Assembly (NCBI GenBank): GCA_963681505.1
Contig: OY811971.1
Location: forward strand, 7,414,924-7,478,923
Length of the DNA stretch: 64,000 nt
Direction: 5' to 3'
Origin: Eunapius fragilis
Lineage: Eukaryota; Porifera; Demospongiae; Spongillida; Spongillidae
Part shown: one piece after another, positions 8,383 to 64,000 of the stretch
Layout: each line of letters opens with the position of its first letter
Position numbering within the stretch: the first letter of the stretch is position 1
Notes under the pieces: generated by a model
Database searches by the model: none
Told to the model about the DNA's origin: nothing
Seen by the model: only the letters and a program-made list of their open reading frames with translations
Program-made: the position numbers and the translations under genes

Positions 8383-11300
8383 ATGGCTCTCGATTCATCT
8401 CAACCTTGCTGTGTGCTTCTCGCAATACTTTTGGCCACTACCGTGTGTGAAGGTATTACTTTGTATTAACGATTCGATTATAGCTGAGTGCATGTGCGAC
8501 GTTGTAACATTTCTCTCTCAGTAAGCGGCCAGTTTCTCGAGCACCCATCAACTCAAACAGCCGTTCCAGGGGCAGTGACCCAGTTTACCTGCGTTTTCAA
8601 TTACGCGAGCGACTATCACTTTGAGCTAAATGGAAGGAACGATGTCGCCGAAGGCAGGGAGAAATTGAGCTACAACTCCATTTGTAATTCCACCGCTTGC
8701 ATAATAAGCATCTACCTGACAGCTGATAATATTTAAAATCCCAATGGAACCACCGTACAGTGTTTCGCATACTTTGCGGGTTACCTTCCGAGCGAAATGG
8801 CGTATTTGTACATTGCTGGTAAGTTATCTACTGTATATTTCCGTGTTTGCACTATAGTGCACTATAGAACTTATACTATCTAAAAACTGCGCGCTGACGT
8901 GTGTACATTCATGCAGGTCCACCTTTGGCACCATATCCTCGGCTGTCATCGTCAAATGCCACATCTTTGATCATTACATGGGAGAAGCCATATACCTGGG
9001 ACCAGGTCGCCGACATCTACAGCTACACAATTAGAATGTTTAACAGCAGTAACAATGAAACGAGGACCTGGATCGCTAATGTGAGTGCAGGAATCACGTG
9101 GTACTGTGCAGATATTGACACCTGGAGTGTCTACGTTCATCCTTGCCCAAACCGTGTGATTGATGATGATGGTACACTGAACCTAACGTATTACAATTTC
9201 CTGGGGACAAGGAAGACGCATACTCAGAAGTGTGACACGCTAGTGTGGTACGTTTCTGCCACTAGCGCAGCGGGTAAAAGTGACTCAGCAGCGATTCGCG
9301 GTGGATTTTCCCCAGGTATGTACAAGTGTAACCTTAAAAGTATGTAATATTCTCATCAGTGCATGCATGTTCGATGCGAGCGTTATTTGATATACATTAA
9401 ACTGTATGGATGAACATACATGAATGTTTTGTCAGAATGTCTCCCATTTGAACTAGAAAAACAACCGTGGGACATCCAACAGCCCATTGTAGCAGAAGCT
9501 TACTACAATAATGTGGGTAATGGAACAATGGCTGTTTTGATAAACATGAAGGTTAGTTATTGTCATAATTCATGCATGGATATGGGATTTTGCTTGAATT
9601 CAAATCTTCACAACATTCAAAATCCCGGTACTAGCTGACATTAATTTCCTCCAAAGCATTGAAAAGGGATGAGTGCGTGTCAGGCGCAGTTAAAAACGGT
9701 TGGCTTGTAAGGCGCTCGAGTTTTGGAGTGACATACCAGAAATATGTATACCCATACCTGATGGAACAGTGAAATGGAATTAGAAATCGATTTGCTGCTA
9801 AGCTGTGATAGCTTGACAGTATTTATGAAGGTTATAATTATATACAATTACTGAGTGTAACCATAAAGATTATAGAATACAGGGATTGGAAACGGTAAAG
9901 ATTACGAGATTCATCCGATTCCGTAAATTATGTACCCTGGCCAGGGCACTTTTGTGAGCTTTGTCGAGAAAATAGTTGAATGGAATCGCTCCACAAATGC
10001 GTCTTCTTATTGTTAAACGTACTTTTACCATTTGGATAGCCAGATCGGGCACAAGATTCTCAAATGTACCTATATATCTGAGCTTTGACCCCAGCAAACT
10101 TGCGAGCCATTTGCTCCTACAACACATGCACAACACATAAGAAATTTTGATCACGCCACTCAATATGCATCGCTGATTCACAATATGTCCTCAAATATTC
10201 TAGAATCTTTCAGGGAAAAATATAAACAAAAAGTACGTTTTTTTTGGATATCATTATGCGACATATTTACGATGCCAGAACCCTTCGTAAGGACTCCAGA
10301 ACGTTACTACGTCACACTAAAAACTACGTAATCTATATGGGAAACCCCAAAATGGATTTATTATGATTCCTGTGCCCAGAAAAATTACACAACCACTATC
10401 CGATCAGGTGGTAGCTACGATCACTTGCTGGCTACAGTAAAAAGAATAACTATACGATTTTTTGGTGTCAAAGGGGCTGTCCTCACAGATTTATGTGTTT
10501 AGCACAAAAGACCAAACCATGATAAGTCGCTTTGAACAACATGTTTTCATAAATGTCCCATCTTCTATCTAATACTATAATTTCCGACGTACGTACGTAA
10601 CTCATTTATAACACACCTTCACATTGCATCTGTGGAAAATCATTCACTGTAGAACATGCACTCTCATGTCCTTTTGGAGGTTTTCCTACCCTACGCCACA
10701 ATGAGATTCGGAACCTCACTGCAAATCAACAGTCTGAAGTGTGTCACAATGTAACTATCGAACCAACCCTACAACCAGTTACTAGGGAAACCTTCAAACT
10801 CGCTTCTGCCATCACTGACATTGGAGCAAGATCCGACATTGCAGCTGATGGTTTCTGGGGAGGCCACTTTGAAAAAACGTTTTTTGACGTCAGAGTCCTA
10901 AATCCACTTGCTCCATCTAACACCACACCCACACCCAGTGCTTGCTACCGCAGACATGAAAAAGAAAAACAAAGAGCATATGAGCAACGCATCAGGGAAA
11001 TAGAGCATGCCTCTTTCACCCCCATTGTACTCTCCACTACTGGTGGAATGGGTCCAATTGCAACCACTTTCTATAAACGCCTGGCAGACCGGCTAGCTTC
11101 TAAATGGAACTCATCATACAGCCAAACCATTGGATGGTTGCGATGCCGTCTGTCCTTTTCTCTCCTCCGCTCATCCATCCTTTGCATCAGAGGAGCTCGT
11201 TCTTCAAAGGGGCGCGCGTGTACCCTGCAGTGTCCCTCTCCCTGTAGACCTAGTGCACAGTGAATCTAGGTTCACTCTGGACTAGAAAGCAACTAGTTGA

Positions 11301-16350: not shown

Positions 16351-17153
16351 CACATTTGATTACATGATGTATACTGCTAGTACTTCGTATAAAGAGCGAA
16401 GTAGGACCTACCCGAGTCTTGTCAGTGCAGTAAGCTTAACTATACGTGATTTGCTGACACAACCACCGATATATGTCATGTAGCCTCGAGACGTTTTGAC
16501 CACAGAAGCGAGAATGCCAACGAATTCTGAACCCATTGGTGTAATTTTCATTTCTTAAAAGTGTTCCTATCCCGAGTTATGCGTGGTCAAGAACAAGAAC
16601 AAGAACAAGAACAAGAACAAGAAGAACGAGAAATACGTGGGACTGGGTACGAGTTTCGAAAATTGTTTTGTTCTCTACAACCACGCGGTTTTGTGACATC
16701 AAACAAACACGAAACTGCTTGTTGTTGCCTTCTTGTACGACGACGATAACAAGGTAAGCCATCCGCTCGTTGGGAGTCTTGTTAGAAGCGGGTCGCGTTT
16801 TTTTAATGACATTCATAATCGGGGTCAAATCCTATATGAGAGTTACTAACGTAACTCTCGATTTGCCTTATCAATGGATAGTTTGTCTATCCGTTTGTGT
16901 TCGTTTCGTCTTGAGCGTTTGGCGTGGCTGTTTTAGAGGGGGGAAAGTGGGCTCTTTCGATCTCTTTTCTACGATGCGCAAACAGTCACAGGCTTACTTT
17001 TTTCAAGTTCACACATTTTTCTCTCTGCACGTTGCGCGCATTCACGTATTATTACAACTATGTACATGTAAACCTAAATGCAATTGTATATGCATTAATA
17101 TTAGATACTCATTTTTTTAAAAATCCATGCAGAGCTGCAACGGGCCTCTAGTA
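16351..17153 (+). other. Intergenic repeat debris with a Helitron-like 3' end at 17151
   Basis: A (GAACAA)n microsatellite lies at 16587-16625. From 16836 the sequence is related to 15480-15715. At 17128-17152 a TGCAG/CTGCA mini-hairpin precedes GGGCCTCTAG followed by T, again like a Helitron 3' terminus (CTAG|T). Open frames in this stretch carry no recognisable domain. Confidence 0.4.
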
Positions 17154-17453
17154 TCGGAACCTGCGGCCCATATAGGATTGATGCTGTATAATGAATGTCA
17201 TTAAAAAATGTCTGGAGGGACGACGGTGAATCGGATCATCGCTATCGAACGATAACACAGATAAGAACAGTTTAGCGTTTGTTCTGTGTCACAACAGCGC
17301 GCGCTTTTAGAGAACGAAAATACTCGTGCCCATGTCTCGTACCCGGTCCAACTGTTATTCACCGCCATTTTTATTCTTCTCCTTCCTTCCGCCACGAAGA
17401 ACTCCAGCTAAAAACGTTGTCCATGAGCGCCAACAGCATCAATCACTTCAGCA
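17154..17453 (+). mobile_element. 5' fragment of the composite hairpin-element family
   Basis: It matches 52500-52850 in order: GAACCTGCGG, ATATAGGATTGAT, GAATGTCATTAA, GTCTGGAGGGAC, CGGATC, TTGTTC, GTGTCA, CTCGTGCCCA. It then continues to the AGCTA..AACG..CAATC.CTTC stretch. It stops where the hAT-type MITE at 17454 is inserted; after that element the sequence changes to the reverse-transcriptase fragment. The copy has no coding exon or hairpin of its own. Confidence 0.6.
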
Positions 17454-17467
17454 CAGTGGCGGCGGAA

Positions 17468-17498
<31 letters not shown>

Positions 17499-17654
17499 CT
17501 GGGGGGTCTCGAGCCCCCCCAATAATGACATAGGGGGGGCTCAGCCCCTCCTAACCAAGCGACAGTACAATTGTTATTCTTCGTTGAAATTCATGAATTT
17601 AATTATCCCGCTTTTGGAAGCCCCCCCAATCATATATACCTTCCGCCGCCCCTG
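17454..17654. mobile_element. hAT-type MITE with perfect 8-bp target duplication and a G31 run
   Basis: The terminal inverted repeats read CAGTGGCGGCGGAAGG at the left and CCTTCCGCCGCCCCTG at the right. The 8-bp sequence CTTCAGCA directly flanks both ends (17446-17453 and 17655-17662), as expected for hAT insertion. The interior begins with an uninterrupted run of 31 G residues (17468-17498). At about 200 bases there is no room for a transposase. Confidence 0.9.
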
Positions 17655-17774: not shown

Positions 17775-18165
17775 TTTGGGCTGCCCAGACTGAGGCATTA
17801 TTTGATATTCGTGTCATGGACACTGACGCCCAGTCATATACTCGCCGCACTGTTGATTTTGTTCTGCTATCAGCTGAAAATGAGAAGAAAAGAAATACCT
17901 AGATGCCTTTCACCTCTTTTGTCACCTCAATTGATGGTGTCCTTGCTCGTGAAGCTAACTCTGTCATGAAACTTTTAGCAACGAAAATAGCATTGAAGTG
18001 GGAAAAACCACTAAGTGAAGTGATTGGATGGGTAAGGGCGAGGTTGGCATTTGCTATACTAAGAGCCACAAATCTGTGTATAAGAGGAAGCAGAGTGAAA
18101 TGGAGGAGTGCTATACACATAGATGACGGGGCTGGACTACCAACATCAGCTTATGAGTAGAATTT
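17775..18165 (+). mobile_element. Second 3' fragment of the reverse-transcriptase element family
   Basis: The sequence encodes the same C-terminal region as 10600-11270: LFDIRVMDTDAQSY, then AREANSVMKLLATKIALKW, IGWVRARLAFAILRATNLCI and RGSR. The first part is in a different frame from the second, with a frame change near 17900. This is a short decayed copy lying between the receptor and the VWA gene. The reverse-transcriptase part is absent. Confidence 0.6.
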
Positions 18166-26220: not shown

Positions 26221-26285
26221 CTTTATCGGTCATTAGTTTCCTTAATAATGATTAATCAATCCAACCAACGAGTGGAATACCTTAA

Positions 26286-26795
26286 GGCGACACCAAGTTG
26301 ATTTCATGTTTCTCGGACGCGGCGGGTCATTTGAGATGAAGTTCAAGGAATGTTATTCATATTAGGGGTGTGTCATCTATAATTATTATACATACGTGTA
26401 CGCAGTGAACCAAGCACTGCGCACGCCGCTATTGTTGATGCACACAAAAGTGCCACTTCAATTGTTAGAAGTTTAATACAGCGACTGTATACTTGGCTGC
26501 ATGCAGCCCTTGTCTACTGAGTATCGTCAGTATATGTCCTCTTTCTTATGGATCAGTGTTGTAGTGAAATGTGGTGTATTATTGTCATTCCACGAAAAGT
26601 TTTGCAGTGTTCATTTGCCATGTATATGTAGTAACCTTTGCATGCGCAAGCGTTGTATAGTACGCATGCGCTTGCGGATTGTTTAACATCATATTCACAC
26701 ATGTAATTATAGTATTCATTTAACTTTTTTTTTTTTCCCCCGGCGACCGGGTCACATTTTTTGGTCGAGAAACATGAAATCAACTTGGTATCGCC
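26286..26795. mobile_element. TIR element with TTAA-like flanks (piggyBac-like MITE)
   Basis: The left end GGCGACACCAAGTTGATTTC continues ATGTTTCTCG, and the right end is the reverse complement with single differences, giving ~33-base inverted repeats. The flanks are TTAA (26282-26285) and CTAA (26795-26798), suggesting a TTAA target duplication with one change. The host sequence GAGTGGAATACC / GGAGCAAGACGAG is continuous with the same exon in the copy at 53030, so the insertion point is clear. The interior has no transposase. Confidence 0.7.
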
Positions 26796-27072
26796 TAAGG
26801 AGCAAGACGAGAACAATACTATAGCACGAGTGCGCTATCAAGAGTCCTGAAAAGAAGAAGGCATCTGTACGTGACAGCTACAAGGCCGATCCCGAAAAGA
26901 AGAGGCCTCTGTAAACAAGGCCGACCCTAAAACAAAGGCCTCAGTACTCGACAGCTACGACGCAGGAATTGATCTGCTGAGAGGCAGAAAACCACGATGA
27001 GAACCGTGCTACTAAAAGGCAGAAATACGAGGTCAATTGAGCTGCCATTAAGGCATCTGAAAGGACCCCACT

Positions 27073-27356
27073 CAGCGGCGTAGGCAGGAGTTTAAAAGTG
27101 GGGGGGCAAAGTTCGATGGTCATCATGGCGGGAGAGCGGTGCCCCTCCCCCAGCCAGCTAGGGGAGTGTTGTAAGCTTCCGCATTGGGGTCTGGGGCTGT
27201 GCCCCAGAAGCCAACGCTATTTGCATCTAACGACGTTACAAAACTACACTAGAATCAGTGCAATTCATTACAAATTACGCATTTATCTGTAGTATCGCTG
27301 GTGTAAAAGTAGGGGGGCATGGCCCCCCCCCTGCCCCCCCTTTTCCTACGCCACTG
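27073..27356. mobile_element. hAT-type MITE inserted in composite element I
   Basis: The ends are CAGCGGCGTAGG (left) and CCTACGCCACTG (right), the same CAGTGGCG-type terminus as the MITEs at 17454 and 53262. The interior shares GGGGTCTGGGGCT.GCCCCAGAAGC with the 53262 element. Comparing with 28283-28300 and 53947-53975 shows the empty site as CCCACTGTCCGATTGG. A perfect 8-bp duplication is not visible; CCCACT and CCATTG flank the ends. Confidence 0.75.
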
Positions 27357-28739
27357 CCATTGTCCGATTGGCTAAACGTGCTGCCAAGAGATGGCGGTAT
27401 CGCAGAGGTCACAGAACTACCACTACCACCCAAAGGTATGCTCTGGGCATGTTGTATTGTACTAGCATTAAAACGCTATGGGAAGATGTGCATGCAAACA
27501 GCACGCATGCATGTATGTAAGGGATCTTGTACCACTTCACATGTTAAGCATGCATGGTGACCCAACTGTGTGTACAGTAGTCCTTTCTTCTTGTGATCTG
27601 TCTTTTGAATATTGGGGTGACATCATGAGAGGGCTTGCCTGCAACTGTATGAATTTAATTGCAAGTGCTGAGTAGGTGAAATGAAAATTACTGCAACCAT
27701 ATCCTTCTCCCATATAACTACTCCTTGTATGAACCCAAATCTCATGCACTAATGGATGATAATGGTGGTCTTGAAAAAGCTAATCTTAGGGATAGTGAGT
27801 TTCAAATTGAAGTAAATGATGCCTTTTGTAATTGCTAGCTCAAAAGGTTGTTACAAGATCTGTCCCCACCGCCAGCAGCAAAACTGCTCCTGCCGCTACC
27901 ACCATTAGCTGCACTGCCCCCCCCCCCCCCCCCCCACCAGCAGATACAGCACTGCTCCCACCACCAGCACTAGCTGCGCTGCCCCCTACCCCCACCACCA
28001 GCAGAAGCAGCAACAGCACTGCTCCCACCACCAGCACTAGCTGCTATACATGTAAGGGCTTGCCTGCCTGTGCATGCAGTATGAATTTAATTGCAGTTGC
28101 AAGGGCTGAGTACTAGGTGAAATGAAAATTACTACAACCATATCCTTCTCCCATATACCTACCACCACAAGCTGTGCTGCCCCCTACCCTCATCACCAGC
28201 TGGAGGAGAATGGTGCGGCTAAAAGGCAGAAATATGACCACTATTCAGCTGCCATTAAGGCACCTGAAAGGAATCTGTATTAGGATGACCCCACTGTCTG
28301 ATTGGCTAGAGAGGACATGGTATTGCAGACGTCACAGTCTCACAGAACTAGAACTACCACCCAAAGATATGTCATGGACATGTTGTATTGTACTTGCATT
28401 AAAAATCTATGGGTAGATGTGCATGCAAACGGCATGTATGTAAGGGATCTGCACAAAACCATTCTCTTCACATGTAAAGCATGCATGTCCTTCGTGACCT
28501 GTCTATTGAATATTGGGGTGCCATGTTAATCTGATGTACAAAAAGGCTTCCTTATCTGATGTACCAAAGGCTATAGTCTACATGTTAGGGCTTGCCTGCA
28601 TGTGCATGCAACTGTGTATGAATTAAATTGCAGTTGCAAGGGCTGAGTACTAGGTGAAATGAAATTTACTGCAACCATATCCTTCTCCCATATAACTACT
28701 CCTTGTATATGAACCTTGTAATTGCTAGCTCAAAAGGCT

Positions 28740-29250
28740 GTTACAAGTCCCCCACCGCCAGCAGCAGCAGCACTGCCACCAGCGCTAGCTGCACTGCCCC
28801 CTACCCCCCACCACCAGCAGAAACAGCAGCACTGACCCCGTCACTACCACCACTAGCTGCGCTGCCCCCTGCCCCCCACCACCAGCAGAAACAGCAGCAC
28901 TGACCCCGCCACTACCATCACTAGTCCCCCACCGCCAGCAGCGGCAGCACTGCCACCAGCGCTAGCTGCACTGCCCCCTACCCCCCACCACCAGCAGAAA
29001 CAGCAGCACTGACCCCGCCATTACCACCACTAGCTGCACTGCCCCCTACCCCCCACCACCAGCAGAAACAGCAGCACTGACCCCGTCACTACCACCACTA
29101 GCTGCGCTGCCCCCTGCCCCCCACCACCAGCAGAAACAGCAGCACTGACCCCGCCACTACCATCACTAGCTGCACTGCCCCTACCCCCCACCACCAGCAG
29201 AAACAGCAGCACTGACCCCGCCACTACCACCACTACCTGCGCTGCCCCCT
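28740..29250. repeat. ~66-68-bp minisatellite, proline/alanine-type
   Basis: About six units of the type AGCTGCACTGCCCCCTACCC, CCCACCACCAGCAGAAACAG, CAGCACTGACCCCGCCACTA and CCACCACT follow each other, with one disrupted unit at about 28925-28960. Comparable but non-identical CCACCACCAG-rich sequence lies just upstream of the hairpin in copy II (55921-56135) and copy IV (63290-63780). It is thus a constant part of the family even though its sequence differs. Confidence 0.8.
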
Positions 29251-29530
29251 ACCAACAGCAGCAGAAGTACTGCCACCCTTGCACACCACATGGTCAGAAC
29301 CTGGCAGGAGAGGAGGGCTGGGGAGGAGGATGCAGCCGCCCTTGAGAACAAGGACAATTTGTACACTATAATTATCATTACTATTACTAAGTTATTTAGG
29401 TGTTTAGTTTATTGCACTAAGAGATAAAGTTAGGGGTGGACATGGATCGTCCTATAATTCTAGTGATTATTGACCTTTCCAAAGTTTGATGATTCACTAC
29501 GATACTCTGAGGGAGAAAAAAACTTATGAA

Positions 29531-29826
29531 ACAAGTAAATAAAAGCATTCTCTAATGAGAAAGTTGTTGGTTTATAGGATTGACCAATGCTGGTGTAAAA
29601 AGCATGGAAACAAGAGTGACAGAAATTTGACTGGAAAATTGAAATAGGCCAATATTTAGCACACTCACATTATAACAGTGCATGACTGAGCAATGGGCTA
29701 AATATAGGCCTATTTAAAATTTCCAGTCAAATTTCTGTCACTCTTGTTTCCGTGCTTTTTACACCAGCATTGATCAATCCAATATACCAACAACTTTCTC
29801 ATTGGAGAATGTCTCTATTAACTTGT
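29531..29826. repeat. Terminal hairpin of copy I, subtype B with diverged arms
   Basis: The outer words are ACAAGTAAATAAAAGCATTC and, at the right, complement-related GAATGTCTCTATTAACTTGT. The arms of ~130 bases pair over most of their length with roughly a dozen mismatches, so this is an older copy than 56239-56529. Copy-specific words such as AATTTGACTGGAAA and CAATGCTGG occur in both arms. Confidence 0.85.
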
Positions 29827-30096: not shown

Positions 30097-31019
30097 CTAC
30101 AGTGGAAATATATAGCCTGACCTTTTCGGGCGTGCAATGCTTTAAAGCTGAGTTGCAAGACTCAGCTGCAATGCCCGGTCCCGGCGCCCAATGGGCCTGC
30201 CAGTCGGTGGCAGAATCGATTAGAACGGCACCCGCGGAGTCGACTCGATGCCTCGTTCAAGTAACTATTATGTAGTACAATAAATACAATGAACAAGAGA
30301 TAATTACATCTGGCCAATACTATCCTAAAAGTAATATAGAATTATACATGCATACCTGAGGGGGAAAAAACGCCAGCAAGTGGATTATCTGACGTCGATG
30401 GGAGGGACATGGATGGGGAGAGGGACATATGCAGACTGGGATAGGGAATGGGAAAGTGAACTGGCGGCAACTATCAACTAGGATGGAGAGGAGAGTGGAG
30501 ATGATGGCAGTGGTTGGCAGGAGTGTGGTGTCGTTGAACACGTGGCGATGATCATGATGTCGGTGGGGGGAACTGCACGATAGTAGCCTGGTGTGCCCTG
30601 AGCAAATGTTTAATGTTTAGGTAGATGTCCCTGAACAGGGCGACCAGACTACTTCTGGAGGCGAGATGTCATGGCACATTCGCATCACTCACGATTAGGT
30701 GTTAAGCTCTCTGGCCAAATTTCATTGGCCCCCCGTTTTGACAAATTTGAATCTAACCAAGACACAAGGCAATGTGTACTACTAGTTTATACAAAGTCAA
30801 ACACCTGTATTCACAATTGGTGGGTGATTGATTATGCATGATGCGCCAATTCCATTCGACAGCAATATCATTGCAGAACCATAGCTTGCAACCCAACTCC
30901 CAACTGAACATCATTATAATGATTAATTTCATTCCCATAAATAATCATAAATAAAAGTTATCCCCGCCTCTGCCTCCACATCTAACTCTTCCGTGATATG
31001 AAGGTGGTAGTGGCAAGAT

Positions 31020-31195
31020 CCGGTGGTGTAAAAAGCACTGCAAACATGGTTAGACTGTTCAAAATGGAGCGTCTATATTTACAAAATGTAGCACAATTGT
31101 AACACAATAGGAGTATTTCATTTTCCATTTCAGTCAACCTTGTTCATGTCCTTTTTCAATACACCAGAACAGCCTCAACATTGTCCTAAAGAGTT
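31020..31195. repeat. Decayed member of the hairpin family
   Basis: GGTGGTGTAAAAAGC, CAAACATGGTTAGACTG and GTCTATATTT...GTAGCACA on the left correspond to complementary words on the right (TTTCATTTTCC, CAGTCAACCTTGTT, CCTTTTTCAATACACCA). The outer parts are lost. It has no coding exon attached. Confidence 0.6.
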
Positions 31196-31612
31196 TGTTT
31201 AACTTGGAAGAAACAAAAATACACGTAATACAATTCAAATTTTCACTGCGCTGTGTATACAAAAAAAAAGACAAATTGAATCACTAACACAATTCCAATG
31301 GTTCTAACAAATACAACTAGTTATTTTTGTCCTTGGACAGTTTAACTCCTTTTCAATCATGAGTTTGTATCAACTGGAACATACAGTGTGAGTCCATAGA
31401 ATGAGAGTGGAAAGAATGATATGATCCAATATTTTAAGTAATACTTTTGTGAAGGATGGAAATGATGTTTCGAACTCATACAATACACATACATGTAGTT
31501 GTTTAATACATGTACAATACATTCTCTCGTTGGCTTACCCACGTATTTTATCACATACTGTATTTAAATCACATACCAAAAATTATAATTTGCATTTTTT
31601 TCTGCAGTTACA

Positions 31613-32854: not shown

Positions 32855-35690
32855 CTAGGTCTCGACTGCCAGAGGGACGCACACCCACCCTAGCTCACTG
32901 CATTTGGGATCATTAGCCTTGTGCTTGCTGGTTTCTGCTGATATAGCTGAAAAGCCTGATGTGATGCATGCTTGATTTAGTGAGGCAACAGAAAGGGGGG
33001 ATGACACAGTGAAATCAATGGCAGCAAATCTGCCAGTAATCCAATCACGAACCAAAACATCAGCTGGGCGGGATCGAGAACCATCGGGTGTCAAGTTGCT
33101 ACCAACTTCAACTTGAACACCAAGATGGGCCTGGTGACAGAAATCAACAAACTCAGAAAGACATCTCGAAGTCGATTATGTCGTGGGACCACATCTCCAC
33201 CCTTCTTACATGTAGCAGCATGGTGACCCAGGATCGGAGAACTAGATCTAATGCTGTGTTAGGACAAAGAGAACAGGAAAGCCCTCTGGAAATATCCAAT
33301 CCCAACCACCACCTAATGCCTACACAGAACTCATGGGGGTCAAGATGTAAACCAAGCTCTACACTAGGCACCACTGAAAGCCAAGAGGATGCATGAGGGG
33401 CTGATGCTAAGAGGAGGCGGGCCTTGTTAGCAGGAGATGAGGAATCTAAGAGAGCTCTTAACTGCTCAGTGTCAATTTTGAAAGACAAGGCCTTTTGAGG
33501 TATGGGTGAATCTACAGTAGATCCAATGAGAATAGTGTCTTGAGTAGACACTAGACCATTGAAGGTGGTCAAGGCATGCTTTAGATGTTGGTTATCTACA
33601 TCTGCAAAACCCGAGGAGCTAATAGAAGCAATGTACGCAGCACAGGCATGCAGTGCCAAGAACGCAACCCCAAACCTCCATACCTCAGACCCAGCTGTGC
33701 ATGCTGCCAGGCAGGCTCAGTGAGGTCCATAGCAGAACATGTGGCAAAACATTCCTTCACTGCCACGTCAAATATCTGCATAGGGTCAGAGGATAAGCTG
33801 GGGGGAGTGGACTGAGCAATGTGAGCCAACCTACAAAAACTACCACACACACAAAGCCGGTAGGGTGAAAGCCACCTGGGGGTCAATGACGGCAACATCC
33901 TGAAGCCTGGACAGCAACTTCAAGGCCTCAACCCGCTTAAAGGCAATGAAATTGGCACAGTGGATATAGTCACCAATAGGGGCACCAAGGATAATGAGGT
34001 TAGGAGTGTGGAAGGCGTTCATTGAATCCGGAAACATTGTTGTGTCAAATCCACAGAACTCCTCAGATTGATGAAGATCCCCAAAGAAGGACCCATGTTC
34101 TCAATGATGGTAACGGCCTGGAGCAGTGACAACTTAGACCCAGCTAAAACCCCCATCATCAAGGTACCATGCCTGATACAATAGGTTAAGACAGTCATCG
34201 TCAGCATCAATTAATGACACTATCCTGTGCAGCACTAAGGCAAAAAATAGGGGACCCAATGGATCGCTTTGCTGCACCCCTGATTCAGAGGTTAAAATGC
34301 CTAAAGGGTAAAAAAAAAAGGCTGGGAGCTGTAACACCCTGTTGCCCAGGGAAGAAGTTCTGGAAAGAAGTTTGAACATTCTAAAAGGAGAGCTTCCCTG
34401 GAAATGAGCATTCTTCATGTCAATCTTAATGACTGCAAAGTCATTGTCTAACCAATGATCCTCAACACAGCGTCTTAGCCCGTGTACAATCTTTTCAGTC
34501 CCTGAGGCACAAGCCACTCCCAGTTGAAGAGGTTGAAAGAAATCTGATGCCTTTTCCTTTACTAAGGCAAATAAACACTTCCCAGTAAGTCTTCTCAGGC
34601 TTTCTCCCACTGTGATCGGCCTGATATCTGGGGGGCTGTTGGGTTTAATTTTTTTCAGTGCTGTCAAGTTGCTACCAGCAAGATATCTAGACAGTTCAGA
34701 TGGGGCCTTGCCTGATGCCAGGAAGTTTACAACACACTTCAGGGAGACACAAAGTGGAGACAGTAAGGGGATCAAGGAGGTGCTGAACCCTGAGGCCTGA
34801 GGGACCTGCTGATGTTCCTCTGGGAAAAGATTGCAGGAGGGCTGCAATGTTGAACTCAGGGCCCAGAGATGGGCGAGGGGAAGTTGGTTCTGGGGCAGGA
34901 GCTAAATGAGGTGTGCAACTTGGGTGTTTAGCTTTGAGCAGCTCCCATGTTGTGTCACTGTGGGGGGCAATGCCATCTGAAAGGAGCATCCGACATGCTT
35001 TGTCATACATACCCAACCTAGCCAGGGTGATTGCTGAATACAGGGACTGCTTGAAGTCTGCATCCTGTCTGGTGGGAGTTGACCTTGAGTTCTCCTTAGC
35101 CTGCCTCCATAATGATTCCAGCTCATTTCTGGACCACCGTTCACAAAGAAATTCAATGTGAGTAGGTCTGGAATGTCGACCATTGCATTTTAGAGAGGGA
35201 AGTACACATTTTGGCAGCATAAGAAGCCTGAGCCAGGCTTCAGCAGTGTTTTCTGACAGAATTGATCTTAAGACTGTTGACAGAACTTTAGCAAATGCAG
35301 GCCTAGCCTTCTTAGGGACAAAGCGCAGAGTAGGGCATTTAAGTTCGCATACCTCTTCCAGGGAGGGCAAGTTAGGTGTGGTTGGCTCAGAAAGTGCAGC
35401 AGGCACAGGCCCAGCTGTTGTAGAAGGAGAAACATGTGTGAGCAATGCCGAAGATGAAATCAGATTAGTGGTGCAATGTTGTAAGTGGGAGGCTGCCCTT
35501 GAATTAGCAACCAAATGAGAGCATTGTGGACAAATGAACACAGCCAAGAAAGCGGTACAGAACCACGAAAAACTCAACGGGTATGTAAGGACATATGAGA
35601 TCGCTCTATTGTTGGAGCAATCCGCTTTGTACACTCTGGAACAGGTTGGTTTTATTGATTTCATATCATAGCAATTTATTGCACACAAGA
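32855..35690 (-). mobile_element. Non-LTR-like reverse-transcriptase element with restriction-like endonuclease domain
   Basis: Reading from high to low coordinates, the coding pieces are as follows. An N-terminal zinc finger has CPQCSHLV and HLQHC (about 35500-35400). A conserved pre-RT region has RPAFAKVLS, AEAWLRLLMLPKCVL and TSAGPSGLRVQHL (35300-34750). The reverse transcriptase has RPITVGESLRRL, VIKIDMKNAH, GVQQSDPLGP and YLDDG (34700-34140). The downstream region has LGAPIGDYI, AHIAQSTPPSL and GLRYGGLGLRS (34000-33600). An endonuclease-like end has SRPADVLVRDW and AAIDFTV, then ELGWVCVPLAVE (33090-32860). The parts are spread over several frames, so this copy is inactive. It resembles LINE-type elements with a C-terminal nuclease, and the family name is uncertain. 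Confidence 0.7.
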
Positions 35691-36189
35691 ATTGTATATA
35701 GAAGATGAGTACCTAGTTAATCATGTCATAACTGGAGCATTCCATTCATAGTGAAGAACAGGACATTTAGATTTTTGGGTCCCAAATATGAGTTACCTTT
35801 ACGGAGCGGATAAAACTTGTTTAGTGTGACTTTGAAAGATATACATACTCATGCATGGTATTTTCATCCGTTTACAACTCAGAGTAAAATTACGTACACT
35901 TTGCAAAATTACATCTTGAACAGTACCACTCATCCCCCTTGGGAGGGAATAGCAGTCCCACACATGAAAAATGGTACCATTGTATGGTATCATTACATAA
36001 CACCATTTCACCATGTTCGATGTTTTGGCAAAAAAAGAAAATATCATTACTATGGCTCTCTTCTAACTACTCTGACTGCTTTGGGAAAAGCTTTTCCAAA
36101 AAACGTTTGTCTCTATATATACGCTAAATCAACAATCCTTTTGTTGTCCACACAACAAAATCACAGAATTTTTTTTATCACATAAGGTT

Positions 36190-39100
36190 AGCTGACCTTG
36201 AACCTGTGTATAATATTTGTGTGTGGTGCATAGACCATGTTCCTCTGGGGCCTGTATCTCATGACCATCTTCGAGGTCTCCTACCACTTCAGGAGCTGGT
36301 GATTGTGGGTTCTCCTGCTGTTGTGGAAGATACACAACTATATATCTTCCATCTTGTCATCAGTAGTGTTATGAGGTACTGCAGTCCTGCCAGTAGGAAC
36401 CACTTCTGGTACATCAACACAGACTGGCTGTTCCATTATAATCTCATTGGAGACGCAAGGTTTCAGCCTGTTGAAGTGCACAACCAAACGCTTCTTTGTT
36501 CTCACACAGTTCATAATGCGGTAGGAGGCTGGTTCTAGAAGCGACACCACTTTGTATGGCCCTTGCCATGGCCTGTGTAGTTTTCATGAGCGACCTCTGG
36601 GTACCTGTGGACAGTGCAGCAACACCAGGTCACCAACTTGAAAAGGTCGCCCCCTGATCGATTTGTCATAATTGGATTTCTGGTGGTTCTGCTGCCTCAT
36701 AGTGTGTTTTTGCACCAACTGGTAGGCATGTTACAGGTGAGCTTTCAGCTTGGTCTTATTGTCAGCTCCAGCTGTCTCCACACTAGCTGGAAGCAAACAT
36801 CACATCCTCTGGAAGATGCACTTCACGCCTGTGCATCAACTCAAATGGCAAGGCACCAGTGGTGTCATGGACACTTGTCCTATATGCCAAGAGTATGAAA
36901 GGAAGTTGCAGGTCCCAGCTCTTCTCATTCTCCCCCACAGCAATGCTCAGCATGTTCAGCAATGTCCTTTTAAAGTGTTCAACCATCCCATCGGACTGGG
37001 GATGGTATGGGGTGGTTCTTGTCTTCCTTATTCCCAGCATCAGGAACAGTTCCTTGATGAGGTTGCTCTCAACGTTTTTCCCTTGATCTGTGTGAATGGT
37101 GTCAGGAACTTCCATTCGACAAATGAACTCATTAACCAGGATACACGCCACTGTCTGTGCTTCCATGTATGGGAAACGCCTCCTTCCACCTGGTGAAGTA
37201 GTCTCCTACCACCAAAATATAACAGTTTCCCCTTTCAGTGACTGGTAGTGGTCCCAGAATGTCCATGGCAACTCTTTCCAAGGGGCCTTGATACCTAGTC
37301 CTCTAACTGCAGTGGAGCCCTTGGTGTAGGTGGTGATTTTCTTGAACTACAGTTGGCACAGCTAGCACACCACTTCTACACATCTTTTCTCTGGCTAGGC
37401 CAATAGAAACGTCTTTGAACCTTCTGAAGCGTTTTCTTCACTGCTAGATGGCCTCCAACCAGAGAGTCATGTAGTCCTGAGAGCACTTTTGGTACTAGAG
37501 ATACTGGCAACACCAGCTGGAGTTCCCTGTGTAGTCCACCTCCAGGAACATCTTCCCACTGCCTGTAAAGGACTCCCTCTTTCAGGATCAGCTGGTCCTT
37601 CTGAGACCACAATGTTTTTAACTTTGCCTGTACAGGAGGAGAACGAGGAATAGAATTAGACTTACCATGAAAAAACTTCCATCAAATCTGCATCGCTTCT
37701 CTGAGCAAACTTAAGATCCTCAGGTGACCAAGTAGGAAGTATGGCCTCCATCTGTACCACATCACAACTAACAGCATCATCAGAGGCCTCTGAGAGACCA
37801 CACTGCTTGCACGGCACACCAGAAAGACAATCAGCATTTGTGTGGTTCCTCCCTGTTCTGTGCACCACTTGGTAGTCATACTCAGCTAGCTGCTCCAACC
37901 ACCGAGCAACCTGCCCCTCTGGTTCCTTAAAACTGTGAAGCCACTGGAGTGCACTGTGGTCAGTGTGCAACACAAATCTACACCCATACACATACGGTCT
38001 AAAGTGATGTGTTGCCCACACTAGTGCCAGCATCTCATGGCAGGTTGCACAATACTTCCTTTCCATTTTTGTAAGTGTCTTGCTGGCATAGACAACCACT
38101 CTCTCTTGACCTGCAATTATCTGGGACAATACAGCACCAAGGCCTCACCACTAGCATCCGTGTCCAGTAGAAAATCTCGGTTGAACTGTGGCATCACTTG
38201 TACTGGTGCAGATACCAGTCGCTTCTTAGGTTCCAAAAATGCTTGTGTGCATTCTGCTGTCCACAGCCACTTCTTTCCCTTGTCAGGGAGAGCATTCAGT
38301 GGAGCTGCCACCTGAGCAAACCCCTCAACAAAACGGCGATAATATGATGCCAATCCCAGGAAACGCTTCAAATCTTTCTGATTAAGAGGAATGGACCAAT
38401 CAAACACACTTCTAACTTTTCCAGGATCTGTTTCAATCCCCTTTCCAGACACTAAATGCCCCAGATAGCGAACCCTGTTCTGAAGCAGGTGACATTTTGA
38501 TGGTTTTAGCTTAATACCAGCATTCTTTGGTCTGGTAAACACATCCCTTAGTTGGCCCAAATGCTCTGCCACTGTTCTACTGAACGCAATGATGTCATCT
38601 ATGTAAACCAAACAGGTAGACCAGTGAAGACCAGCCAACACCTGTTCCATAAGCCACTGGAATGTGGCAGGTGCATTACGTAACCCAAATGGCACAGCAC
38701 GAATTGATGCAGCCCAAATGTATAATGTTACAAATGCTGTCTTTTCCTGATCTGAAGGGTCAACCTCCACCTGCCAATAACCACTAGCTAAATCTAGTGT
38801 GGAGAAATAATCACCCAGTGAATCTAGAGTATCATCAATGCGAGGCAATGGCTGGGCATCTTTTATGGTGACCGCATTAACCTTCCTAAAATCTATGCAA
38901 AACCTTGTACTGCCATCTCTCTTTTTTACCAGCACAACAGGAGATGACCATGCACTAGTGCTAGGTTCAATAATGCCCTTACTCAACATATCAGCAATCA
39001 TATTACATACATCCTCTCTCTGAAAATAGGGAAGTCTTCTGACGGGTTGTCGATTAGGTACAGCATCCCCGGTATCAATCCTGTGGTAAACCAAGGCTGT

Positions 39101-41000
39101 CCTGCCAAGGTCATCATCACGAATAGATGTGATGCTTTCAAACTCGGCCAGTAGGTCTGCTAATTGTTGCATGCCTCTCTCTCTCTGACATCTTGGGCAC
39201 TGGATACCAATTGGCGTATGGTGGCCTCCAAGGCGGACTTTCTGTCATTTCCGTGTTGAGTAGCCTCCAATTCAATAGCACAAACGTCCATAAGTGGCCG
39301 CAAATATCCGATCCTTCTCCCCTGTTGCACCTGAACTGCGTGTGGGGTTGGATCCAGGACTTGCACTACAATACCAACATTACTCTCCTGCACAGCAGCA
39401 TGGGCTACTGCCAGTCCATGACACTCCATGAAATCCTGGCTAGGCTCAAATTAATATGACACCAACCAGGTCATAACATGCTGCTCCTGCTTTTTGTTCT
39501 GTCAGATGACCATCAATCTCATTCGACAGTTTGCAGGCACCTCCACCGTCTCAGCAACTGACAACCCCACGAGCATTGAGTGGTTTCCAGATGAAAGTGC
39601 ATGGAACAGCCGTTCCCTTAACCAGCAGGGAGTGATTATGCAAATCAATTACACAACCATGCAGTACAAGAAAGTCTGACCCCAGTAAGCAATCCTGAGT
39701 CAAGCACTCAGCCACCAAAATATGATGCTTAACTGACAAATCACCTACCCGAATACAGACATCACCTTGACCTGACAGGTTGATTTCATCACCATTAGCA
39801 GCAAAAACTGCATGAAGTGGTGTCTCCAGTTGTTTCTGGCCTATTTCATCCCTAATGTCACGGCGAATGATAGTTACAGCCGACCCGGTGTCCACCAACA
39901 TTTTCGTACAACGCCCTTCAATGTAGCCATATATGAACAAAGCTGCACTCACAGCTGCACTCTCTGATGGAAAGTGGGCTTTAAATGCAGTTCTACGCTG
40001 GGGGCAGTCCCTCTTGATATGGCCTTGTTTCCCACATTCCCAACATAATGGACCATGCAGAGGCTCGCTTTTGTCCAGTGCCACCATCCTTCCTGCTAGC
40101 TGGCCATCTACTGCGGCTAGTCCCCCTTGCTGACTCTTTAAGCAGTTTCTGAACTTGTGTGGAGAGTTGGTGAACCATTTCTTCAGTCTGTTTGAGTTGC
40201 CGGCCACGTCTCTCCTCTAGGGTCGCTTTCTCCTGGGTACTACCCGTATGTCTGTTGTAATCAGATGCAGCATTCGATGTACGTGAACCATCCTCTGCAT
40301 CCTCTGTCAATGCAAGTGATTCCGCCTGACATCTGTCCTTCTGCAGTCTTTTCTGTGCTTCTTCAATAGCTTCTAGTTGACTCGCTAATTTATGCGCGTC
40401 GACCTTCAGCGTGGGCGGCATCTCTTTCATCAGTCGCAGCTGAACGGACAAAGACCGCACTCCTTGCATGAACTGGTTCCTCAATACTTCCTGCTTCCTT
40501 TCTAAAGACCACCACTTGGGGTAGGCCCTGTCGGCGAGTACCCGCAGTTCTCCGGCGAACTCGACCAGATGTTCCCCTGTCTTCTGCATCCTGCTCTGCA
40601 ATTTTCGCAGCCACTCGAGTTCGCTACCCTCGGGCGCGTAAAGAGCACGCGCAAGCATTTCACGACATTATCATAACTGGGGGAATTCATCAAACCTTGC
40701 TGCGAGATTACCTGGAATGGCTCATCGTCTTGTAAAGACAACAGCTCTCCTGCTTCCTGTTCCTTAATTCGGTACCTTTGCTAGTCGGACGTACAGCTCG
40801 AAGCGAGACAACCACAATGTGATGTCAGTGCCAACCGAGAAACGTGGCGGTGGTCGCTGGCTCATCCTCAGCAGCGCAGCATCCATTTCAATCCCACTTC
40901 TGGCACCAGTGTAGCGCCCGCGCCAAGAGGATGACCAGGTAAGGTAATGCAGCGAAGTAGTAATCTATCTTACATACACAATGCGCACACTTAATACATA
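36190..41000 (-). mobile_element. Broken Ty3/gypsy LTR retrotransposon (fossil)
   Basis: Parts lie in the usual order on the minus strand. Gag is at about 40740-40000 and a zinc knuckle plus aspartic protease (LVDTGSA) at about 40200-39550. Reverse transcriptase (YIDDI) is at about 39170-38120, RNase H at about 38130-37660, an integrase zinc-binding region at about 37610-37380, and an integrase core at about 37170-36780. A primer-binding-site-like sequence next to TGTAGCGCCC near 40911 suggests the upstream LTR starts there and runs to higher coordinates. I could not pair it with a downstream LTR. The copy is broken, with roughly five or more interruptions, and looks moderately old. Confidence 0.85.
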
Positions 41001-46733: not shown

Positions 46734-49700
46734 TTACCTCTTTCTCCTCATGAGTAGAATGGTTACTATGACAGCAACGACAAGCAGGATTAGGAGCACC
46801 ACAACCAAGGTGGCCAGAGTTGCTCCTAGGGCTGTGATGGTTGTGTGGGAGGCCTGGTCCACTGGGGCTGTAGAAAGTAACATGTAGGGGGGTAATTTAG
46901 CATTACTGCTGCATAACAAAAGACCAACCTGGAGTAAGTACCATTAATGCTGACGCCGCTGCATACAGTGGTGGGTTTGGGTTTACTGTTCGCTGTCCAG
47001 AGATGTTTAAGATCACCTGCACACTGAACTCATAATAGTTGTAGTTAGGTTCTAGATTACTGATGACTCCATATGAGGCATTTGAAGGGAAGATTTGAGT
47101 CAGTGCTCCTCGAGACTGTCGTTGTGAGGTAAGCTTGGAACGATAAGATACCTCATATCCTAGCATGATGTTCTGACTAACACCAAGAGTGGTGTTCCAA
47201 TGCAGTCGGATAGAGATGCTGGAGAGAGCCTGGAGTAAGGTGATTGGAACTTGAGCTAATGGAGGACGCACAGTGAGATGGTTAGCACTGAGAGTAGAAT
47301 TATATACTCACGAAAAGTTGCTGTAGCTGCTTGAAGGTAAGTTGGTTGTCCACTTCCCTTTGCAGTTAGAGCAACAACACTGATATTGTAGCTCATTGAC
47401 ACATTAAGCCCAGATATTACAATTTTTGTGGTAGAGGAATTATATATCACAGTTCCCAATAACACCTGATATCCTATGATCACTCCATTCGGAACAACAG
47501 GTCGAGACCATATCAACGTAACAGTTGTTAAAGTATTGCTTATTTGATTCAGCAAAGTAACAGGTCCAGCAACTATATAGCAAGTAATGGATAATAGATT
47601 AATAAACATGATCACACAACGTAACCCTTGTGCAAAAAATACTCGATTCTGCTCACATGATTCAGCAGTTCTGTTTGAAACTATGTTTGACTGCATTCCT
47701 TCACCAACTGATGTGTTCGCAGTGACATAGCAGTCATAGTGAGTGTATGGGTTAAGTCCAGCATTGAATGTAACAGACAATGTTGACCCATTCACCACAG
47801 ATCTAACAGAAGGCACATTTGGTCCAATCTCCTGTTCAGGATATGCCTGACTGGCAGAGGTGTTACAGTACACAGTGTATGCAGTGATGATGCCATTCTT
47901 TGGTATGGGTGGAGACCAGCTAGCAGACAGTTGGTTAGGTGATCCAGGAGCAGTGGATACTGAAAACGCCAGAGGTGATGATGGAACTGCACAAGAGAAA
48001 ATATATTGCAACACACATGCCTGAGCTTTCATCAAAGTTCTACTATGCAATATTTTTATTCATGTTCATGATATTGATTTATTGGTGCATAAAATGATTA
48101 TTTGATACTCCATACCAGTTCATTAATTAAAACGTAACTGCGCATTGCTCTAAGTAATATACACAGTATATGCAGTGATGATGCCATTCTTTGATATTGG
48201 TGGAGACCAGGTTGCAGATAGTTGGTTAGGTGAGCCAGGAATGGGAGACACAGAAAACACCAAAGGGAATGATGGAACTATAGAAATGAGCAATTTAGTG
48301 ATATGCTCAGGTATTACTTCTTATATAAATTTTACCAAATGATGGAGTAGAGACAAAGGTGTTAGAATACTTTTTAACAGAACAACTGAAGTGCCTGAAA
48401 TTAGTATAGTGTGGTTGAGCATGAAAGTAGGCAATAAATTCACTCTACTCCACCCCATTTTAAACAGTGAAAAGTAGATGTGTAAGGTTTGTACCATCTG
48501 AAAATATTAGAATATTAGCTTCCCATCCTGGGAACCAGTACCACTGAAATGCACCTCAATAATTAATGATATTAGTGTATAGCAGGACAGAACCTTTGAC
48601 TCAATTGGTCAAATACACTTCACAGACCACAGGTTGCACGAATAAACACTTTTCACATGATTTTTGTACTCAGAAAAATATACCTATTCCACATTAGTCA
48701 TCATTGATGACATTATAGGATATTTGTTCTGGATAGATTATGGTACTCGAAAAACGTCATTTGAACCATTACTGCCTACCTGATTCAGAAGTCCTTCTGG
48801 AGATAATCTGTGATGGTGTGCCTTCACCAATTGATGTGTTAGAAGTTACATAGCAGTCATATTGAGTGTTTGTGTTGAGTCCAGAGTTCAATGTAACTGC
48901 CAATGTTGACCCATTCACTACAGATCTGACAATGGGAACATTTGGTCCAATCATCTGTTCAGGATATGCCTGACTGGCAGAGGTGTTACAGTACACAGTG
49001 TATGCAGTGATGATGCCATTCTTTGGTGTTGGTGGAGACCAGGCCGCAGATAGTTGGTTAGGTGAGCCAGGTATAGGGGACACAGAAAACGCCCGAGGGA
49101 GTGATGGAACTATAGAAATGAGCAATTTAGTGAAATGCTCAGGTATTACTTCTTATATAGATTTTACCAAATGACGGAGTAGGGAGAAAGGTGTTAAAAT
49201 ACTTTTTAACAAAACAACTGAAGTGCCTGAAATTAGAATAGTGTGGTTGAGCATGAAAGTAGGCAATTAATTCACTCTACTCCACCCCATTTTAAACAGT
49301 GAAAAGTAGACGTGTAAGGTTTGTACCATCTGAAAATAATAGCTTCCCATCCTGGGAACCAGTACGACTGAAATGCATCTCAACAATTAATGATTCAATT
49401 ACTAGTGCATAGCATGACAGCACCTATGACTCAAATTATACTCAGAAAAACACATTTGTCATCATTGATGGCATTATAGGATATTTGTTCTGGATAGATG
49501 TGGTACTCGAAAAACGTCATTTGTACCATTACTGCCTACCTGATTCAGAAGTCCTTCTGGAGATAATCTGTGATGGTGCTCCTTCACCAATTGATGTGTT
49601 AGAAGTTGCATAGCAGTCATATTGAGTGTATGGGTTGAGTCCATTGTTGAATGTTACTGCCAATGTGGACCCATTCACTACAGATCTGACAATGGGAACA

Positions 49701-52700: not shown

Positions 52701-53086
52701 CAAACAATTTCCTGTTTCTCGTGCCCAGTCCTAAAATAATTCTCCATCGTCGTCGTCTTCTTCTTCTTCTTCTTCTTCTTAGGAAGGTATAACTCGAGCT
52801 AGGAACGGTTTTGGAGGACGGGAATAGTACCAATCGCTTCGAAATTTACCTGCACGTTATCCTTACATGTCATATAGACATACATATATCCAGTTCTATT
52901 TATTAATAATTATTATAAATACTCTAACCTGCACTACGGTGTTCCAGTTTAATATATTAGTTGTTACTTTGGCTAATAGTGAAGTTCTTTTTCTAAAAAT
53001 GCAAAAGAAGATATCTAAGCAACGAGCGGAATACCTCCAAAAGCAATACGAGACAAAGCTAAAGCCCGAGCGCACTACAAGGCCAA

Positions 53087-53119
<33 letters not shown>

Positions 53120-62559: not shown

Positions 62560-64000
62560 ATATGTATCTAGGCGATCTGCTAAATAGCAGCTGCTATTAT
62601 TAGAAAATCTGACGAGAACCATGTCATGATAGATTAAAGTGCAAGGACAATTTAGTAACCTTTAAACCATCTGAAAGTTATGATGTCTGATTGGCTAAAA
62701 CAGAGGCCAGTACTTAATTGAAGCGAGCTCATGGTATTGCAGGGGACCACACTAAGCAATGATCTATTGCATAGCATTAAAAGCTAAGGGGATTTATAGT
62801 ATTGCATGCAATGTGAGTAATACACTGTTGGTCAAAAATTATAAGGGATATGTAGAAAGTGTAGAAATAAAAACAGTCCCACCATTCATTTACATCACAG
62901 CAAGGGTGACCTCTTCGTTGAATATCTATTATATGAAGTACAGTAAGTCAAAGATTACGTTTGTATGCTTGCTTGTGCAAGTTTTTCACTAATTGATAAT
63001 ACTGACTTGTGTGACTTTTCACAGTGCTAGTTGCATGTATATCCTAACGGAACTCAGATTACGTACTAGGTGAAATAAGAATTACAAGAATGACTGCAAC
63101 CATCTCTCTATGTCCTACATGTATATACCATGTATAAACCCAACACCAACCAAGTTATATAGTAAAAATCTATTTTTTAGGAGTAGTGAGGTATGCCTGA
63201 TGTATGACACATCCAGGGCTAGCTCAAATGGTTGTTTTTTTTTCAGATGTAGTATACGGCTGATGAAGCAGTCAAATTAGAACTTGACCAGTGAATTCAC
63301 CAGCCAGCATCACCACATATCCTCCATTTTTGGATGTCCCCGCTTCACCAGAGCCACCAATAGATACCCCTTTGGCCCTCCATATCAGGGTACCCCCTTA
63401 CCACCTTCACTTGGAGATACCCCCACTCCAACCAGTGGATTCCCCCCTCCTCTATCAGTTGATACCTCCTAAACCTAATCAGAATGCCCCTCTTCCACCA
63501 GTAGACACCCCCACCTGGATACCCCCACTTTCACCTGCACAAGGGAACACCGCCACTAGTATCGTTCTTCATATTGGGATGCCCTGCTCCCATCCCTTCT
63601 ACATAAGGCCATACCTTTACTACCTCCACCAGAAGAAACCTGCCGCCAATCTATACTCGTGGACACCTCCGCTCCTTCCCCTCTTCCCCTTCCTTGACCT
63701 GTAGATACCCACCTCCACATCAGCCTTTCACCTCTCCACACACCCACACCACCCCATTACACCTTCACATCGGGGAAGATGTACTTATCTCCTGAACAAA
63801 ATTAATGAGGGGAACAAAAATAACATTCACTATGAGAGAGCTGGACCTCAGCTGGTGGCAAATAGGATTGTAAAGTATTGGTGGTGTAAAAATTATCAGA
63901 ACAGGTTAAGGTTGGCTGAAAAGGAAAATTAAGTATGTATATTCCATTTTTCCATGCTTTTTACAGCACCAACAAAATTAATCCTCTAGAATATTTTTTT
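62560..64000 (+). mobile_element. Composite hairpin element, decayed copy IV
   Basis: The order of parts matches copy I. There is a coding-exon end remnant (GATGTCTGATTGGCTAAAAC, 62677-62700; GGTATTGCAGGGG), then intron-like sequence (ACTAGGTGAAATAAGAATTA, ACTGCAACCATCTCTC, CTAGCTCAAATGGTTG). A CCACC-rich proline-type stretch follows (63290-63780), then the start of a hairpin at 63812 that runs to the window edge. Coding potential of the exon is gone. Confidence 0.6.
63812..64000. repeat. Decayed terminal hairpin of copy IV
   Basis: Left-arm words AACAAAAATAACATTCACTA, ATTGGTGGTGTAAAAA and the right-arm words ATTCCATTTTTCCATGC, TTTTTACAGCACCAA, TTAATCCTCTAGAATA correspond to the family hairpin, but with a shortened middle. 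The right end is cut by the window boundary. Confidence 0.65.

Follow-up and report, generated by a model that had tools for sequence, protein, structure and literature searches.

The 64,000-nt window of Eunapius fragilis DNA analysed here, within which all loci and motif sites reported below were counted, raises the question of what kind of unit could carry an exon-like sequence together with a long hairpin to several places. The original prediction had described at least five loci sharing parts of one layout, i.e. a coding exon of DPEKKxASVRDSYK-type repeat units ending at a donor-like site, an intron-like stretch, a proline-type minisatellite and a terminal hairpin of about 293 bases. These loci are borne out by our analysis, which adds a sixth, decayed hairpin, and the shared layout is real, confirming that earlier observation. 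We interpret the copies as non-autonomous derivatives of a rolling-circle-type (Helitron2/Helentron-like) element, which would have kept the 5' end, the leader and the first exon of a presumed larger gene together with the 3' end; we put the probability of this reading at about 0.56.

Copies of the element and their 5' ends

Copy I (26246-29826, plus strand, from exon start to hairpin end) contains all the described parts, namely exon, donor, intron-like stretch, minisatellite and hairpin, its exon being broken by two nested inverted-repeat elements. Self-comparison of the window revealed exon, intron and hairpin homology between this copy and copy II (52508-56534, plus), which extends from a TC/hairpin 5' end to a probable 3' end and is nested in copy III. 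The latter, of a second subfamily, is thereby split (52428-52507 and 56535-57300, plus) and has no recognised 5' end. Copy IV (16861-15718, minus) consists of a 5' end, a leader, a decayed exon and the hairpin, and matches copy III at 96% over 460 bp, from exon through hairpin. Copy V (62674-64000, plus), cut by the window end, retains a decayed exon end, intron, proline-rich stretch and hairpin, and copy VI (30978-31206, plus) is a decayed 3' hairpin with no recognisable exon. Finally, the locus designated IVa (17154-17449, plus) is a solitary 5' end of the first subfamily with its leader; it has lost half of its 5' hairpin, and neither exon nor 3' hairpin was recognised there. Two groups emerge from this inventory: I, II and V combine exon, intron, proline-rich or minisatellite stretch and hairpin, and in III and IV about 90 bases separate a shorter exon from the hairpin. 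Copy IV had been described as carrying, in decayed form, the whole layout, yet in IV, as in III, no minisatellite is seen by eye.

Four exon pieces used as tblastn queries (E up to 0.01) located the exon at I, II, III and IV and nowhere else. The exon of copy V was missed in this search, its homology being visible at the DNA level only, with scores of 145, 136 and 138 for the exon end and intron (shuffle means 54-61, maxima 73-89; 60 shuffles each); the score of 145 corresponds to exon end plus intron of I (shuffle mean 54, maximum 73), and two control stretches gave z values of 1.1 and 0.0. The score of hairpin VI was reached by 0 of 200 shuffles for each of four hairpin queries, compared with 57-137 of 200 when hairpin II was aligned to three control stretches. 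Within the 1.1 kb preceding hairpin VI, the exon end plus intron of I, the exon of II, the minisatellite of I and the intron of II all scored no better than shuffles.

The recognition of a 5' end, in II, IV and IVa, is new relative to the original prediction. In copy II this terminus (52508-52544, plus) comprises TC, a hairpin at 52510-52531 (9-bp stem, 4-nt loop) and the sub-terminal repeat ATATAGGATTGA from 52532, and in copy IV (16861-16825, minus) it reads TC-hairpin-ATATAGGATTTGA; both share the order TC, then directly the 9-bp-stem/4-nt-loop hairpin, then ATATAGGATT(T)GA, the sub-terminal repeat lying 24 nt in from the end. The three recognised 5' ends all start at A|TC. The leader of II, upstream of its exon (52508-52935, plus), aligns with IV at 16882-16424 (z 18.9) and with IVa at 17153-17449 (z 26.9). 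Folding of the 5' hairpin is well beyond chance in II (z -5.7) and IV (z -4.9; 0 of 200 shuffles each), and six of the nine stem pairs differ between these two copies, every one by changes on both sides; 95% of the cells are paired, a figure that drops to 25-53% when the alignment is slid by 1-3 columns.

The core motif ATATAGGATT occurs at 9 sites in the window against 0.18 expected; three of these sites belong to 5' ends, the other six lie within hairpin arms (copies II, III and IV), and one-base variants are seen in the arms of hairpin I. Its 12-nt version ATATAGGATTGA (GATTGA) is found at both ends of II and its 13-nt version ATATAGGATTTGA (GATTTGA) at both ends of IV. The motif of the 5' end recurs in the hairpin arms, in II and IV in the version proper to each copy, from which we conclude that the 3' hairpin and the 5' end are parts of the same element. 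From the outer end of the hairpin the repeat begins 41 nt in, or 46 if copy II ends at 56534. Two other candidate 5' ends were considered: the block 52428-52472 showed nothing on folding (z +0.2, +0.6), and a relic near 44463 was not clear, being reached by 6 of 200 shuffles with one query and 81 of 200 with the other.

The nested arrangement of copies II and III allows an empty-site comparison, as the block 52428-52472 and the sequence that starts at 56535 lie next to each other in copy IV (16355-16200, minus). Joining the flanks of II at 52507/56535 restores TTAATAATAACATGCACG, to be compared with TTATAATAACGTGCACG in IV, which fits an A|T site; this sole usable insertion site reads ATAA|TAAC. 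TAA adjoins both sides of II and the empty site of IV already reads TAATAA, therefore no target duplication is needed to explain the insertion. The suggested non-autonomous mobile family, of which the hairpin would be an integral 3' end, is supported by the boundaries that copies have in common, by the nested insertion, for which a paralogous copy supplies the empty site, and by the 5' motif within the hairpin arms. Its membership in a known family is not established, as the comparison covers the copies of the window and no Rep/helicase was found in the 30 ORF pieces scanned.

The 3' hairpin, its arms and competing explanations

The predicted terminal hairpin of about 293 bases was recovered as a 296-bp structure in copy I (29531-29826, plus; z -25.7, 0 of 200 shuffles) with arms matched at 90.7%. 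Arm identity reaches 100% over 129 nt in II (56239-56529, plus), 96.9% in III (57008-57300, plus) and 99.2% in IV (16010-15718, minus), and all four readable hairpins start with ACAAGT and end with ACTTGT. Over these copies 97.6% of the cells are paired, as opposed to 44-46% when the arms are slid. Between groups the arms match at 82-90% with 12-18 gap columns. The comparison of II with IV, with 12 gap columns set aside, shows 14 two-arm changes and no one-arm change; that of I with II yields 6 two-arm changes and 12 positions at which a single arm, of copy I, has changed, and that of III with IV 1 two-arm and 5 one-arm changes, the one-arm changes being present in the worse-matched copies. 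Independent change would predict at most 1.6 double positions for II-IV (P 1.8e-9) and 1.1 for I-II (P 0.001). We rely here on the gap-aware count of 14; another count, of 32 pairs, includes columns shifted by mirrored indels. The single arm mismatch of IV, seen in the III-IV comparison, is absent from the II-IV pairs counted and must therefore fall in one of the gap columns set aside or beyond the stretch that was aligned.

In-step changes of both arms, together with the one-arm decay in copy I, would mean that a lineage keeps its arms matched as long as it moves, each arm decaying on its own thereafter. The higher arm identity of the inner copy II with respect to the outer copy III is what would be expected if the inner copy is the younger one, in line with the order of events. 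In mechanistic terms, a Rep/helicase supplied in trans would nick at A|TC and displace a single strand, with the giant 3' palindrome marking termination. This palindrome could have arisen by inverted duplication of the last ~133 bases of a normal rolling-circle 3' end; at the single-stranded stage the 3' end would then snap back, mismatches between the arms would be repaired and each new copy would start with near-perfect arms. It is tempting to speculate that the 3' end was turned into a 290-base palindrome re-matched at each single-stranded passage, the mismatch between arms measuring time since insertion and the in-step changes being the trace of a single-stranded intermediate, a proposal that we regard as tentative and would not call probable.

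Rolling-circle transposition in animals has been inferred largely from the anatomy of element ends, and a reconstructed bat element (PMC4778049) is reportedly the experimental case. Renewal of the palindrome on each move, if true, would offer a sequence-only test for the single-stranded intermediate and an insertion clock built into the element, as the two long terminal repeats (LTRs) are in a retrotransposon; it would also provide a naturally occurring variant of the 3' terminator.

Several observations weigh against the rolling-circle reading. No 5' end was recognised upstream of copy I (z -0.3 against II, 0.6 against IV) or in copy V (z 1.3 and below), and the 5' hairpin of IVa is degraded (z +1.5), half of its stem being gone. 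To the left of copy II, copy III has 27 net extra bases relative to IV between the matched block and the TC, so the left boundary of II also depends on TC being the point where the three-way homology starts. Copy II probably ends at 56534 rather than at 56529, a placement depending on a 5-base gap (scores 216.5 versus 210.5), and a CTAA 4 nt past its hairpin makes the exact 3' end less certain. In the 14 or so bases past the hairpins of I-IV there is no common CTRR, neither I nor IV having one; in III, CTAA lies 6 nt past the hairpin, where another palindromic element begins (57306-57634, 79% self-complementary, directly after the 3' end of copy III). A small palindrome with a 5-bp stem is present near all four 3' ends but is not clearly beyond chance, being equalled by 12, 17, 25 and 53 of 200 shuffles. 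The empty-site test for copy IV from its flanking repeats (17071-16868 / 15678-15507) was negative (shuffle fraction 0.30), leaving one comparison that worked. Among 30 open reading frame (ORF) pieces, including all 17 ORFs of at least 150 amino acids, compared with Pfam and with no six-frame scan made, no Rep, helicase or endonuclease was matched. As for the arms, the measure of further pair types in the 3' hairpin was reached by 56 of 500 shuffles, the statistics rest on few lineages and describe these copies, not a genome, and pair changes on both sides are also what selection on a folded RNA would give.

This last point leads to the best surviving alternative, namely that the hairpin acts as an RNA, either in 3' processing or as double-stranded RNA entering small-RNA pathways, and that selection on the folded molecule keeps its arms matched. 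Hairpin RNAs and transposon-mapping endogenous small interfering RNAs are indeed reported for Amphimedon in the consulted part of PMC6211395, and RNA selection is a serious rival as regards the in-step change of the arms. Against it, the arm identity of II and IV (99-100% along 129 nt) and the scarcity of G-U cells (5 of 506 over all four hairpins) seem to exceed what RNA structure needs, and RNA selection does not explain why the 5' end of the DNA has the motif too; we consider this explanation unlikely.

Somewhat more doubtful still is the chance adjacency of two families, in which the 293-base hairpin would be an independent foldback or miniature inverted-repeat transposable element inserted next to a family of repeats that bear the exon. 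The window has many other inverted-repeat elements, and the decayed copy VI, a hairpin with no recognisable exon, is a weak instance of the independent occurrence that the original prediction had named as contrary evidence. At the remaining five of the six hairpin loci, however, exon-type sequence stands upstream on the same strand, the copies cease to resemble each other at the outer end of the hairpin or a few bases from it, and the motif of the hairpin arms is found at the 5' end in the corresponding version. Nor is a target duplication seen around the hairpin, the longest exact repeats abutting it in copies I to IV being 1, 1, 1 and 0 bases.

Parvoviruses replicate by a rolling-hairpin mechanism in which the 3' end folds back, primes its own complement and re-creates the arms. 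Copying of this kind would account for the near-perfect arms of II and IV and for a long hairpin that reaches almost to the 3' end, but the long hairpin is at one end only, the 5' hairpin is of 22 nt and in the style of Helitron2, and no replication protein was found in the 30 ORF pieces; such a mechanism is improbable here. Duplication of a local host gene family by recombination, which the presence of six loci inside 64 kb and the direct repeat flanking copy IV on two sides might suggest, is the least credible explanation, as both strands are used, copy II is nested in copy III and self-comparison shows no similarity between the flanks of different loci beyond the copies. The direct repeat itself (15678-15507 and 17071-16868, minus) is not explained by the insertion of IV.

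Exon, minisatellite and neighbouring sequences

Exon 1 of copy I (26246-27435, plus; donor GT at 27436) includes the DPEKKxASVRDSYK units at 26846-26905 (plus) and is broken by inserts at 26280-26800 and about 27078-27352. That of copy II spans 52999-54036 (plus; ATG at 52999, donor GT at 54037) and consists of basic repeat units of 14-15 amino acids, with an inverted-repeat insert (about 53262-53735, by eye) among them. In copy III the exon runs from an ATG at 56626, preceded by a leader, to a donor GT at 56916 (plus) with one in-frame stop, and in copy IV the decayed exon has its ATG at 16207 and donor GT at 16106 (minus). The donor-like junctions read CCACCCAAAG|GT or CACTCAAAG|GT, their common position lying within the last Gln-Arg codons. 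Repeat units of 14-15 residues are common to the exons, II and III matching at E 6e-10 in a single comparison of repetitive, charged pieces, and the ATG context is alike in II and III (z 7.0). The case for coding derives from units that are multiples of 3 and from the protein-level likeness of exons II and III; differences by codon position (3,1,3; 11,7,6; 3,5,9) give no consistent coding signal, and the exons of I, II, III and IV are all broken by stops, frameshifts or inserts. At the level of the DNA, the family carries an N-terminal-type exon, as had been proposed.

The intron-like stretch and proline-type minisatellite of copy I (27436-29266, plus) show internal duplications involving exon end, intron and minisatellite (26996-27065 resembles 28203-28272, and 27409-27735 resembles 28340-28715). 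A coding reading of this minisatellite was rejected, its 68-bp unit having stops in all three frames. The proline-rich stretch of copy II (55032-56161, plus) contains CCACCACCAG repeats and starts with an ATG at 55032 just past an acceptor-like AG; acceptor-like AG|AT sites also stand at the head of this stretch in V and in the first block of I. In copy II an open proline-rich frame follows AG|ATGG and differs from the frame that exon 1 would give; it may represent a second exon.

Several other repeats are lodged in these copies. The insert at 26280-26800 in the exon of copy I is an inverted-repeat element with 36-bp ends (94%), and a family of G-run/C-run-rich elements with GGCGTAGG/GGCGTCGG-type ends, its three members linked by short matches and delimited by eye, lies at about 27078-27352 (exon I), about 53262-53735 (exon II) and about 17456-17650 (near IVa). 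The proline-rich stretch of copy II is interrupted at about 55075-55920 (by eye) by a further inverted-repeat insert, about 845 bp long, whose ends are of the GTAGGGCTCCTCACGAAT type.

A check for a long autonomous element between IVa and copy I (17-26 kb) met with VWA-like pieces (below the Pfam cut-off) instead. Elsewhere in the window, FN3 and NIDO domains were matched among the ORFs (Pfam), and an FN3-domain gene region (47256-51554, minus) shows tandem duplications of up to 94.6% over 1159 bp. A broken LTR-type retrotransposon (37662-40667, minus) gave matches to zinc knuckle, protease, reverse transcriptase and RNase H. A reverse-transcriptase-like ORF (E 0.016, below the Pfam cut-off) and C-terminal pieces similar by eye, lacking Pfam matches, are distributed over 10601-11263 (plus), 17903-18160 (plus) and 33153-35712 (minus).

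Searches in IMG/VR produced 10 pattern matches for exon II and 7 for exon III, none confirmed, and the exon alignment gave 35 in GTDB contigs, again none confirmed; the hairpin pattern had no match in either collection. These results say little about animals, as the collections consist of viral and prokaryote contigs. Similar N-terminal repeat units presumably occur in Helitron-type proteins of sponges and corals. The element family was not described in the literature surveyed at the level of titles and abstract openings, and five of its repeat peptides were absent from the paper texts searched. The consulted sections of an article on Helitron protein architecture (PMC9741609) contain nothing on these repeats.

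Likeness to Helitron2, HINE and canonical Helitron elements

The Helitron link put forward as one possibility is favoured by the TC start, the hairpins at both ends, the sub-terminal inverted repeat and one site fitting A|T, and is not proven, no Rep/helicase having been found. Canonical Helitrons have palindromes 16-20 long (PMC4067079, consulted in part), and the available part of PMC4778049 describes the 3' hairpin of Helraiser, a 19-bp palindrome, as a transposition terminator. The sponge element resembles these in its 5' TC, the presence of a 3' hairpin and possibly its A|T site, for which one empty-site comparison fits and a second failed; it differs in having no common CTRR end and a hairpin of about 293 bases.

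HINE/Helentron ends, as portrayed in the consulted parts of PMC4067079 and PMC7492417 (oyster Cg_HINE), are marked by inverted repeats of 12-15 bp in a sub-terminal position, which at the 3' side is 38-60 bp away from the terminus, and by a small palindrome close to the 3' end; some copies contain tandem repeats, and the target is not duplicated. As far as these excerpts go, our copies are similar to HINE/DINE-1 elements in being probable deletion derivatives with internal tandem repeats that differ between elements and, at the one usable site, no need of a target duplication, in bearing identical sub-terminal repeats at both ends (12 nt in II and 13 nt in IV, compared with 11 bp or more) and in the position of the 3' repeat, 41 or 46 nt from the end. 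By contrast, the 5' repeat lies 24 nt in instead of 2-4 nt, a further discrepancy for the rolling-circle reading, and the sole usable site is A|T and not T-rich or TT. The HINE/DINE-1 palindrome of 5-10 bp, placed 8-35 bp from the 3' end, has as its possible counterpart here the 5-bp stem that 12-53 of 200 shuffles equal. The sponge element also differs in keeping an exon and in having a giant palindrome as its 3' end.

Close parallels exist with Helitron2. The portion of PMC5148889 consulted describes FoHeli1/2 of Fusarium oxysporum as elements that start with TC and a 5' hairpin and whose inverted repeat recurs, 38-51 bp from the 3' end, in a hairpin located there; they lack a CTRR end, insert at TNAT|T and have a known Rep/helicase gene. 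The TC start, the 5' hairpin, the inverted repeat found again in the 3' hairpin and the lack of a common CTRR are all shared with the sponge copies, and the Helitron2 combination of an asymmetric terminal inverted repeat with a hairpin at both ends is present in II and IV, the sole copies with both ends. On the other hand, the 5' stems quoted for FoHeli are of a few bases, compared with a 3' hairpin of about 293 bases here, and in place of TNAT|T insertion and a Rep/helicase gene we have one A|T-fitting site and 30 ORF pieces with no such enzyme. Given that the defining traits of Helitron and of HINE are not all shown by the element and that no Rep/helicase was found, we do not file it as a member of either; by analogy of its ends, and with family membership not established, it appears to work like a Helitron2-type element.

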